Of a stretch of 40,715 nt of DNA, positions 130 to 33,345 are shown piece after piece. A model generated the notes under the pieces. The model saw nothing but the letters and a program-made list of their open reading frames with translations. It had not been told where the DNA came from and ran no database searches. This stretch comes from Floccifex porci. Lineage in GTDB: Bacteria; Bacillota_I; Bacilli_A; Erysipelotrichales; Erysipelotrichaceae. Position numbers and translations under genes: made by a program. The stretch lies in the NCBI RefSeq assembly GCF_009696175.1, contig NZ_VUMM01000016.1, positions 1-40,715 on the forward strand, written 5' to 3'. Position 1 is the first letter of the stretch; each line of letters begins with the position of its first letter.

Positions 130-1371
130 TTAATATTGTTTAATTTTATATATAAAATTTGTTTCTTCCATCAACTTTAAAAAAGGAATGGGATCAAAAG
201 CTTCCAGTGAATTCACTCCAGGTTTTCGATAAATTCCTTTTGCGTACAATTCAATTGCTAACGCTGCTGAAAATCCAGTTTGTGCCACAACCGCCTGCAA
301 ACCAAACTGATTCATGGCTTCTTCATTTGAAAAACATTGATACATCATGCATTGTTTTTCTTTTCCATTCTTTATTCCTTTTGCCAGAACACCAACACAC
401 ATGCTTCCTTCCATTTCATCTTTAATGGTATCTGGCTGACAGGCACAGGAAGCAATCACATCTCTTGGTATCACTTGGACTCCTTTTACTTGAACAGGCT
501 GAATCTTATTTAAATGAAGTTTATCCAATACTTGTAATGCATTGATCAAATCTTCATCTAAAGAAATTTTAAAAGAACATTTTTTTAATCCATATTCAGA
601 TAAATATTTGACCATAGTTACCACTTCTTCATGTTCCACTTTTACCAGTGTATTCATTCCAATTTCAGGCATATCAAAAGTTTCTTTTCCTGAAAATGGT
701 TTATCTACAATAAATCCACCTTTACTTTTATCATATTCAACATTTGGATTCATCACTTCATCCAATACAGTCCAAACATTAAATCCAAATATAAGTTCAT
801 CTTCATGTCCCTTAATTTTTAAATTGTTTCCATCTTTTACATGAAGCTCTTCAACTGTATCAAATTCATATTCACATAAATATTTAGCAAAAACATTAAC
901 CGTTCCTGGATCGATTCCTAAACAAATCAAAGCACAGTTCCCTTGTTGTTTCCATTTTTCATCTGCATCAAAATTATATTTAGTCATAACAAGTTCATAA
1001 CTGTTTTCAATGCCCATTCCATATTCCGGTTTTTCTTTTGGGATAGAGAAAGTTCCCATATTTGCATAATCACAATGACATTCATACGCCGCATCAAAAA
1101 TCACATTGGCACAGAATGGACTGGAAGCATCCATCACAAAATCAATATGATGTTTCTGTATTTCTTCTTTTACCATTTCTTTCTGTGTGGCATCTACATA
1201 TCCAAACTGTAACCGAGCATCATTAATTGTTTTCCATACATCTTTTGCATGATTTACATTTACATCACTTAATAAACAATACGTAAACCATTCTTTTTCC
1301 GGATCTCTTTTTAACAACAATTCAACAATGCACTGACCAACCGCTCCAGTACCTACTAACATCATTCTCAT
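130..1371 (-). CDS. Saccharopine dehydrogenase-like NAD(P)-dependent oxidoreductase
   Basis: A 413-residue protein of the saccharopine dehydrogenase / carboxynorspermidine dehydrogenase superfamily. The N-terminus (MRMMLVGTGAVGQ) is a Rossmann dinucleotide-binding loop GxGxxG. A second recognisable part is GIDPGTVNVFAKY near residue 155, typical of these enzymes. I place the start at ATG 1371, not 24 nt upstream, because AGGAGG lies 8 nt before this ATG. Members make or split secondary amines formed between amino acids and oxo-acids; the exact substrate cannot be read here. The gene is the only one behind a tandem glycine riboswitch and its terminator, so its expression probably follows glycine. 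No terminator is evident after the stop, where the repeat array of the window edge begins. Confidence 0.85.
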   Translation of the reverse strand: MRMMLVGTGAVGQCIVELLLKRDPEKEWFTYCLLSDVNVNHAKDVWKTINDARLQFGYVDATQKEMVKEEIQKHHIDFVMDASSPFCANVIFDAAYECHCDYANMGTFSIPKEKPEYGMGIENSYELVMTKYNFDADEKWKQQGNCALICLGIDPGTVNVFAKYLCEYEFDTVEELHVKDGNNLKIKGHEDELIFGFNVWTVLDEVMNPNVEYDKSKGGFIVDKPFSGKETFDMPEIGMNTLVKVEHEEVVTMVKYLSEYGLKKCSFKISLDEDLINALQVLDKLHLNKIQPVQVKGVQVIPRDVIASCACQPDTIKDEMEGSMCVGVLAKGIKNGKEKQCMMYQCFSNEEAMNQFGLQAVVAQTGFSAALAIELYAKGIYRKPGVNSLEAFDPIPFLKLMEETNFIYKIKQY

Positions 1372-1397
1372 TTTCTTTACCTCCTGAACATCCAAAT

Positions 1398-1438
1398 AAA
1401 AAAGAGAAAAAAGAGGAAAAAATCCATCTTTCTTCTCT
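1398..1438 (-). terminator. Riboswitch-controlled intrinsic terminator
   Basis: On the minus strand AGAGAAGAAAGA (1438-1427) pairs with TCTTTTTTCTCT (1414-1403) around a 12-nt loop, followed by a run of U. The first bases of the stem (AGAG) are also the 3' strand of the closing helix of aptamer II. Aptamer folding and terminator formation are therefore mutually exclusive. Ligand binding should allow read-through, making this an ON switch. Confidence 0.75.
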
Positions 1439-1602
1439 GTTCCTTTGCCAGTTGGTTATATCCACGTAGGCGCCTCGCTTAAGAGATCTCTCCAAAGAGT
1501 TGTCTGCTGATCTTCCTTTTGCCTGCTAGTTTCACAAGTTTTGGGGATGTATCCAAAAAAGTTTGCCGCTTCGGCCTCTAAAAAGATGTCTAGAATCAGC
1601 TT
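1433..1602 (-). promoter_or_regulatory. Tandem glycine riboswitch (two aptamers)
   Basis: Two glycine-aptamer signatures follow each other on the minus strand. Aptamer I (about 1600-1504) has a closing helix GCTGAT/ATCAGC, then GAGGCCGAAGCGGCAAAC and the hallmark CAGGCAAAAGGAAGA. Aptamer II (about 1499-1433) has the hallmark CTCTTTGGAGAGAT at its 5' side and CTGGCAAAGGAACAGAG at its 3' side. The short linker is typical of cooperative tandem glycine riboswitches. The 3' side overlaps a terminator stem. The downstream gene is a saccharopine-dehydrogenase-like enzyme, which is not a usual target such as gcvT or a glycine transporter. Confidence 0.85.
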
Positions 1603-1627
1603 CATCCAATTCACTTTTTCTATAAAA

Positions 1628-31383: not shown

Positions 31384-31725
31384 TTATATATAGATGAATA
31401 TTACGGATGGGCTTGCCCATCCGTTATATTCATGCTGGATATATTCATTTGTACTCAATTCTTCTATCAAGCCTCTGTTGATTTCACGGTCAGGTTTATA
31501 ATTAATATCCTGTAGATTGGCATTCGAATCATAAAAGCGTGCATTCTTGATATATCGTTCAACAGTATGATTTATACGTGAATCATATTCTTTGATGACT
31601 ATGGATTCAAACCTTTCTTCAAAAGTCATATTTTGTGTATCCGTATTTTCTGACTGATCTTTATATTCTTCAGCCATGATAGGCAATCTCATTTCTCTTA
31701 GTTTTTCATATAATTCTTGATTCAT
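31384..31725 (-). pseudogene. istB: Truncated IstB ATPase (IS21 helper)
   Basis: Only the first 113 of about 250 residues remain: MNQELYEKLREMRLPIMAEE, then MTFEERFESIVIKEYDSRIN and FYDSNANLQDINYKPDREIN. The Walker motifs that should follow are lost. From about residue 100 the reading runs through the inverted repeat. The ATG overlaps the istA stop (TAATG). Confidence 0.85.
31394..31433. repeat. Fold-back inverted repeat at the istB truncation point
   Basis: Arms of 19 nt (31394-31412 and 31415-31433, beginning ATGAATAT and containing CGGATGGGC) with a 2-nt centre and one mismatched position. It coincides with the break in istB, so it may be the scar of a palindromic deletion/inversion; it could also terminate transcription. 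Confidence 0.7.
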
Positions 31726-33266
31726 TACTTTTTACCCCCATAATATTCAGCTCCACGAGTGAATGCGTATGTAGTATCTTCTTTATTTATCATACGTTCA
31801 GTTTCGCGTTTTACTTCATCTTGACCTGATTCTAGAATCAACTTAATATTCTTATAGGTAGGATTAGATAAGCGAGAAAGCGCCAACTTACATGCATTTT
31901 CTAATCTTGCCTGCGAATATTTATCGGACAGTTTCAAAATAGACAAACATCCCTTGTAGGCTTGTTCTTCTACTTTGTAACGACTAAACATAAGAGTGAT
32001 TAGTTCAACAGTGGAAGGACCTATTGTTGCAGCCCAATTCATAAAGCGTTCTTTATTCCACTGGAACAATTGGTGGTTCTTTGGCATATGCGCCTCATTG
32101 GTAGAATACTGATTGCGATGACCATATAAGCGTTTATGTTGGCAGATCTGATTCTTTTTATAATAAACAGTGACTGTATCTTTTGTCAGTTTTACTTCCA
32201 CTCGTTTTCCAACATATTCATAAGGAATTGAATAATTCATTTTTTCTACTTGAATATGATAATTTAGCTGGACTGTTGCCATTTTCCATTCACTCAATTC
32301 AAATGGATGTTCTGGCAATGGATTCATATACTCTTTTTCTTCATTCATATAAACAGATTTTCTAGAACCTTCACGCTTTTGGAATTCTTCATTATTTAAT
32401 TTGTTCATTTCAATATAGATGACTTTATTCAATGATTCAAAAGTAAAGAATGTTCGATTACGTAAAATACCAATTATCGTTGTAGCCATACTGAATACAG
32501 ATCCTTCTGCAGCTCCTTTATCTTTTGGCATTTTAACGCGTGCAGGAATAACAGCCATTCCATAATAGTCTGCCATTTCCTGGTAAGATTTATTCAAAAC
32601 AGGATCCTCATACTTCTTGTGTTCAGTAACACCGGTTTTAAGATTATCTGGAACAAGAATGCGTGAGACACCACCAAAATATTCAAATGCGTGAATATGA
32701 CAATTAATCCAATTCTTAGAATCCATCCGAGGACAAGCCTCTACATAACAGTACATGCTGAATGGAAGCACGGCTACAAACATATAAGCAGTAACATCCT
32801 GGTTCAATGAGCGATCATGAACCTTCATTGTCTTACCATCCCAGTCAACCATTATCTTATCCCCAGGCTTATGCGTGATATGCATTGTAAGCTTGTTCTT
32901 TTTTACATAGCTTGAGTAGTTGCTGCAAAATGCACTGTACTTTAGATATACCTTATGCGTACTTTTACATTGATCCACATATTCTTTCCAAAGCATTTTC
33001 AAACTGACTCCAACCTTCAAAAGCTCCTTATGCACATATGCATAGTCAGGCTGTTCATAAGAAACATCTATTCCATTTGATGGGAAAAGAAGTTCATTAA
33101 TTTGGGATTCGCTTAAATTGTAAGCAGTGTTCCAATAGACACCTGCAGCATCTGCTGCATCAAATACATCACGAACCGTATTTCGTGACACTTTCAGCAT
33201 TCTAGCGATTTCACGCTGAGAATGATTCTCAAACCTAAGTTCAAGAATTCGTTTTAAATCTCGCAT
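31725..33266 (-). CDS. istA: IS21-family transposase IstA
   Basis: 513 residues. The N-terminal helix-turn-helix is HSQREIARMLKVSRNTVRDV. The integrase core has HKPGDKIMVDWDGKTM (first D), LVPDNLKTGV (second D), and KDKGAAEGSV with the catalytic E. The C-terminal beta domain is YSIPYEYVGKRVEVKLTKDTV. ATG 33266 is preferred over an upstream TTG, because GGAGGTG lies before it. The protein seems intact, but its helper istB is truncated. Confidence 0.93.
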   Translation of the reverse strand: MRDLKRILELRFENHSQREIARMLKVSRNTVRDVFDAADAAGVYWNTAYNLSESQINELLFPSNGIDVSYEQPDYAYVHKELLKVGVSLKMLWKEYVDQCKSTHKVYLKYSAFCSNYSSYVKKNKLTMHITHKPGDKIMVDWDGKTMKVHDRSLNQDVTAYMFVAVLPFSMYCYVEACPRMDSKNWINCHIHAFEYFGGVSRILVPDNLKTGVTEHKKYEDPVLNKSYQEMADYYGMAVIPARVKMPKDKGAAEGSVFSMATTIIGILRNRTFFTFESLNKVIYIEMNKLNNEEFQKREGSRKSVYMNEEKEYMNPLPEHPFELSEWKMATVQLNYHIQVEKMNYSIPYEYVGKRVEVKLTKDTVTVYYKKNQICQHKRLYGHRNQYSTNEAHMPKNHQLFQWNKERFMNWAATIGPSTVELITLMFSRYKVEEQAYKGCLSILKLSDKYSQARLENACKLALSRLSNPTYKNIKLILESGQDEVKRETERMINKEDTTYAFTRGAEYYGGKK

Positions 33267-33345
33267 AAAAAAAACACCTCCAATTCGCAAGATCTGTAGA
33301 ACTTAATATTCTACAAATACATCTTACAACTGAAGGTGTATAAAC

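Follow-up and report, generated by a model that had tools for sequence, protein, structure and literature searches.

The end of a Floccifex porci contig raises the question of which compound is sensed by a tandem-aptamer leader RNA, and which reaction is catalysed by the oxidoreductase encoded directly behind it. A sequence-only reading of this stretch of 40,715 nucleotides, analysed here at its full length and referred to as the window, had described a tandem glycine riboswitch in front of a saccharopine-dehydrogenase-like gene and had suggested a route consuming glycine or a glycine-derived secondary amine. Analysis with cmscan assigned the leader to RF03166 ("glycine-GGAnGA") at 1433-1609 of the minus strand (130.6 bits, cut-off 110, E-value for the window 7.7e-28), the match of 177 bases covering the full model (1-177). 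The tandem aptamers were recovered; the leader extends to 1609 rather than 1602 and its family is the glycine-GGAnGA variant. The features of the locus are as follows.

130 to 1371, minus strand: gene of SDH-A, a putative NAD-type carboxyspermidine-dehydrogenase-like oxidoreductase of 413 amino acids (Pfam, NCBIfam, PDB sequence and fold matches, residue counts)
1379 to 1385, minus strand: ribosome binding site AGGAGGT (sequence)
1398 to 1438, minus strand: predicted intrinsic terminator, its 5' arm sharing 1438-1435 with P1 of aptamer II (folding; layout recurring in 58 of 64 distinct loci)
1433 to 1609, minus strand: glycine-GGAnGA variant riboswitch (RF03166) with tandem aptamers (cmscan, 130.6 bits, gathering cut-off 110)
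1435 to 1497, minus strand: aptamer II, ordinary GAAGG...CUCUCA core changed to UACG...AACU (cmscan alignment; comparison with loci L025 and L026)
about 1506 to 1600, minus strand: aptamer I, near-canonical core, J1/2 changed (UAGAC for GGAGA), ACUAGCAGGC for CUCUCAGGC (cmscan alignment, set against the ordinary aptamers of L025 and L026)

Aptamer I retains CCGAAG..GCAA, and the cmscan alignment contains a leader-linker helix in which 1609-1607 pairs with 1502-1500. Aptamer II reads GCC-UACG...AACU-GGC with a short P3b, whereas an ordinary aptamer II reads GCC-GAAGG...CUCUCA-GGC. It combines the GGAnGA J1/2 (GGAGAGA) with the variant P3 core CCUACGUGGAUAUAACCAACUGG, as in RF03166; with this core replaced, the leader does not have a canonical core in both aptamers, as RF00504 does. 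It resembles ordinary tandem RF00504 riboswitches in its general architecture, its leader-linker helix, the core of aptamer I and the switching between P1 and terminator, while a score over cut-off, tandem layout and altered cores are common to the RF03166 class, from which the leader shows no essential difference. Judged by its sequence, the leader is almost certainly a glycine-GGAnGA family member and not an ordinary glycine riboswitch. It represents another member of an already known orphan class; what would be new is the regulon and ligand proposed for it.

Read-through into the leader is possible from a carbonic anhydrase gene (1664-2227), which is likewise on the minus strand and whose end is separated from the leader by 54 bases on the upstream side. 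A promoter search returned only a chance-level match. Behind the SDH-A gene, at the contig end, 17-122 is occupied by direct repeats that are imperfect and about 29 bases long (TTTAAAGCTCATCCACACAATTA...). Elsewhere in the window, the gene at 31725-33290 (minus strand) encodes a transposase in which a Mu-type C-terminal domain and an integrase core domain were recognised.

Among 315 genomes of the order, RF03166 scored above its cut-off at only four loci, all directly before an SDH-A family gene. Some RF03166 match was found in 24 of 60 relatives, mostly weaker, and all 11 weaker loci checked as a control (ten from this search and L166 from the search of carrier genomes) proved to be ordinary RF00504. 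The window genome also has an ordinary glycine riboswitch, separate from the RF03166 leader and followed by a gene which we take, from its sequence, to encode an alanine/glycine symporter. We further take RF03166 to be the class described in the 2017 variant-riboswitch study, in agreement with passages in PMC9481103 and PMC6944388. According to a passage in the former, which cites Weinberg et al. 2017, glycine riboswitch variants mutated in one or both cores reject glycine; a passage in the latter places the vast majority of the variants from that 2017 study in metagenomic data. No ligand of the class was found reported in the literature searched, to which the 2017 source paper does not belong. 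An ordinary glycine riboswitch inducing a glycine-consuming enzyme, as first proposed, would agree with the tandem architecture and the still glycine-like aptamer I. However, glycine is a very improbable ligand given that aptamer II lacks the ordinary core, that RF03166 is the best family and exceeds its own cut-off, that core-mutated variants reject glycine according to the passage cited and that an ordinary glycine riboswitch is present separately in this genome.

P1 of aptamer II pairs 1497-1493 with 1439-1435, and bases 1438-1435 of its 3' strand are common to the terminator, as the sequence-only reading had noticed. The terminator stem (1438-1427 with 1414-1403, followed by U1403-1398) folds at -17.8 kcal/mol, with a z-score of -3.0 against dinucleotide shuffles. 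A generic terminator scan, whose rule allows loops of 3-8 bases, found none, the actual loop having 12. A hairpin that starts inside the 3' strand of aptamer II P1, pairs at least four of six bases of this strand and leads into a T-run was counted in 58 of the 64 distinct leaders from carriers, which agrees with the ON architecture suggested earlier; the other six (L043, L045, L053, L054, L068 and L071) have no qualifying T-run. Because a ligand-held P1 and the terminator are mutually exclusive, we infer that the leader would very probably act in cells as a transcriptional ON switch.

No gene lies between the leader and the SDH-A gene. Together with the first-gene position of SDH-A in 44 of 64 carrier loci and in all four above-cut-off loci of the order, this upholds SDH-A as the direct target. 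Both saccharopine-dehydrogenase Pfam domains score above cut-off (PF03435, 39.9 bits; PF16653, 59.8 bits), and the description as saccharopine-dehydrogenase-like is correct to this extent, but the closest solved relative by sequence as well as by fold is carboxyspermidine dehydrogenase (CASDH). The SDH-A model (pLDDT 91.2) matches CASDH with a Z-score of 50.3 over 391 residues at 2.2 Å, the best fold match listed. Further matches listed are lysine dehydrogenase (37.6), homospermidine synthase (32.3) and saccharopine reductase (about 30); these VIA-align comparisons are confined to Foldseek's top chains, and absence among them carries no meaning. Passages in PMC10413350 describe the CASDH active site as a His-Glu-Glu triad plus Glu188, and saccharopine reductase 1E5Q as being without the His-Glu-Glu sequence. 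The triad (H247-E248-E249) and Glu188 are retained in 39 of 39 SDH-A proteins, which in carrying His-Glu-Glu depart from the saccharopine dehydrogenase active site. On its modelled fold and these residues, SDH-A is not a typical saccharopine dehydrogenase and is nearest to carboxyspermidine dehydrogenase. This relationship and the variant class of the leader both speak against the glycine-consuming route of the first reading.

SDH-A shares with carboxyspermidine dehydrogenase (PDB 8DEB, 8H52) the fold over 391 residues and the equivalents of Glu188 and His-Glu-Glu. It differs in cofactor motif, an additional arginine, the lack of a partner decarboxylase and its encoding by a riboswitch-controlled lone gene. 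Where four of four CASDH proteins have the Ser of a Ser-Arg-Thr, Asp36 is found in 39/39 SDH-A proteins, 8/8 actinobacterial relatives and 8/8 proteins of a second family, SDH-B, so that the NADP-type motif after β2 is absent from all SDH-A. An Asp at such a cofactor-motif position normally selects NAD, and its conservation suggests NAD as the SDH-A cofactor. Taken together, the NAD-type motif, the ON switch and the lone gene suggest that SDH-A works in the oxidative direction. Arg303, which CASDH does not share, is invariant in SDH-A and in its relatives from actinobacteria. It could bind a substrate carboxylate, a group that spermidine lacks, and therefore counts against a polyamine substrate.

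With the best fold and sequence relatives of SDH-A being carboxyspermidine dehydrogenases, the enzyme could itself be a biosynthetic carboxy(nor)spermidine synthase. We rejected this candidate on the search for nspC (carboxynorspermidine decarboxylase, TIGR01047), which was not found in 23 of 24 carrier genomes, the window genome included; in G812, where nspC was found, its locus also contains a CASDH-like gene distinct from SDH-A. As SDH-A moreover reaches only 120.9 bits against a cut-off of 800 and carries the NAD-type motif, such a role is extremely unlikely. SDH-A was found in just one of 196 genomes sampled from one clostridial class, the genome on which this sample was centred, and the family thus appears rare. 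One SDH-A gene of the same bacterial family (L169, 1489-2730, minus strand) has no RF03166 match and is located directly after an apparent deoC.

The regulon was mapped over 64 carrier loci (L033-L096) obtained from one pattern scan of the genome collection. RF03166 matched in all 49 carrier genomes searched and exceeded its cut-off in 48, whereas viral contigs yielded no match to the carrier pattern. The first gene encodes SDH-A in 44 loci, an APC permease in nine, a CDF transporter in six, and SDH-B, another APC type, or NhaC with amidohydrolases in one each; the two remaining loci are contig ends without a first gene. In each of the nine APC-first loci, SDH-B follows the APC permease. An APC permease follows SDH-A in five further loci, so that APC permeases are found at no fewer than 15 of the 64 loci in all; some loci contain only a partial operon, which makes co-occurrence counts lower bounds. 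PotD is encoded near the leader in at least nine of 64 loci and in three arrangements. As these neighbours are partly shared synteny, the PotD neighbourhood was demoted from proof to a hint. The aptamer II subtype AAUG/GGAAAGA is present in all 11 SDH-B/APC/NhaC loci and UACG in all 53 others, 52 of which also carry GGAGAG; the core subtype thus separates SDH-A/CDF targets from SDH-B/APC/NhaC targets, with no exceptions.

The CDF transporters under this riboswitch class (L042, L044, L050, L065, L067 and L077) carry Phe at the position of YiiP Asp47 and Ala, Glu, Val or Gly at that of His155 in six of six proteins. We take Asp47 and His155 to be metal-site residues of YiiP, in which case two of the usual four are absent here. 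With both replaced, metal export looks doubtful and we did not retain a metal transporter as the assignment; the cargo may possibly be an organic cation. These targets (six of 64) are not accounted for by catabolism.

SDH-B, a remote cousin of SDH-A, is encoded in 10 of 64 loci, nine times behind an amino-acid/amine (APC) permease. Its operons contain a CoA-acylating aldehyde dehydrogenase (419 bits to PDB 8CEI; at least four of 10 SDH-B loci) and a beta-alanyl-CoA ammonia lyase (266 bits to 4MTU), the latter in five of the six SDH-B loci with more than 5 kb available; the sixth, L087, has neither enzyme. The presence of one or both in the longer SDH-B operons fits 3-aminopropanal as an intermediate. 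Five nearly identical copies of the lyase were seen in different operons of G799 (L129, L130, L203-L205; genomes G797, G799), adjoining uracil breakdown genes, putrescine aminotransferase and an RF03166 operon. One near-identical lyase of G799 is encoded beside dihydropyrimidinase (582 bits, cut-off 393), a carbamoylase-family amidase and PreA (522 bits, cut-off 335), a set that fits uracil breakdown to beta-alanine. In another G799 operon it accompanies putrescine aminotransferase (657 bits, cut-off 612), an aldehyde dehydrogenase of 70% identity and an NhaC-type transporter, which indicates that the dehydrogenase/lyase pair probably handles a diamine-derived aminoaldehyde. As judged from gene content, 3-aminopropanal would be the simplest common intermediate of the SDH-B and G799 operons.

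Any match to the lyase was found in 11 of 30 genomes searched. In carriers with an SDH-A-first locus, matches were weak (40-54% identity; G796, G819, G828, G831) or absent; the search found no lyase in the majority of SDH-A carriers, among them the window genome, or in the SDH-B carriers G789 and G800. This distribution bears on beta-alanine, the next homologue of glycine, which the riboswitch might sense as a pathway marker: it is the smallest chemical step away from glycine, and its CoA ester's lyase is encoded in SDH-B operons. Most SDH-A carriers searched, however, have no such lyase, and inducers are more usually substrates than late products. We consider beta-alanine sensing quite unlikely.

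Phylogenetically, SDH-A, SDH-B and CASDH are set apart with strong support, and the actinobacterial group with 70/96; SDH-A and SDH-B are no more than remotely related. The two families seem to have been placed under the same switch independently, so that a common class of substrate is a likelier reason than common descent. The actinobacterial relatives (about 33% identity) are encoded beside APC permeases in three of seven annotated regions viewed, and one adjoins an aminobutyraldehyde dehydrogenase (731 bits, cut-off 615). Plasmid homologues of SDH-B comprise two weak matches, and the one region viewed was uninformative.

The shared class could also be that of N-substituted amino acids, with carboxymethyl-lysine, saccharopine or another opine-like secondary amine as both ligand and substrate, cleaved oxidatively by SDH-A. 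Saccharopine dehydrogenase Pfam domains, invariant Arg303, permeases of the amino-acid/amine type and the descent of the riboswitch from a glycine aptamer are all in keeping with such compounds. The aldehyde dehydrogenase and lyase of the SDH-B operons nevertheless indicate 3-aminopropanal, and fold and triad are those of the polyamine enzyme (saccharopine reductase Z about 30 versus 50.3; triad as described in the passages of PMC10413350), making this an unlikely though not negligible explanation.

We instead favour a polyamine as the compound sensed and oxidized. A ligand bound to aptamer II would hold the closing stem and withdraw four bases from the 5' arm of the terminator; with the terminator blocked, RNA polymerase would read on into the single oxidoreductase gene. 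SDH-A would then run the CASDH chemistry oxidatively, in an NAD-dependent manner, on a polyamine with a 3-aminopropyl arm. Candidate substrates are spermidine, norspermidine and 1,3-diaminopropane, yielding 3-aminopropanal and an amine, where release of 3-aminopropanal would be the decarboxylated analogue of the known reaction of CASDH itself. The ligand would be the same polyamine, imported by APC or Pot transporters. The secondary amine guessed as substrate in the first reading is thereby retained, with a polyamine as the better fit and a glycine derivative as the poorer one. The evidence leans slightly towards a polyamine-type substrate for SDH-A, whereas a polyamine as riboswitch ligand is plausible yet short of probable. 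The reading as a whole, according to which an orphan-class ON switch responds to a polyamine-type amine by inducing NAD-dependent oxidation of that amine, is tentative, its chances being a little under even. Besides Arg303, several findings weigh against it: the lyase was not found in most SDH-A carriers searched or in two SDH-B carriers, SDH-A and SDH-B are related only remotely, catabolism does not account for the CDF targets, the PotD neighbours partly reflect shared synteny, and the SDH-A gene of L169 has no RF03166 match before it. A variant aptamer shifted to spermidine has a precedent in the spermidine riboswitch, a SAM-I variant described in a passage of PMC10853860; it is presented there as an OFF switch for biosynthesis, while the one proposed here would turn breakdown on and would be built on a glycine scaffold.

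We speculate that glycine-GGAnGA riboswitches in general are polyamine-sensing ON switches built on a tandem glycine aptamer, governing oxygen-independent polyamine breakdown in gut Clostridia and Erysipelotrichia, with the subtypes UACG (with SDH-A) and AAUG (with SDH-B) sensing two different amines; in this full form the idea is rather unlikely. The regulon map of 64 loci narrows the candidate compounds to a few and singles out two enzyme families for assays. If the proposal is right, polyamine synthesis with its known OFF switch would have a counterpart in an ON switch for polyamine breakdown, and a way for gut anaerobes to degrade spermidine-type amines in the absence of oxygen would become apparent.
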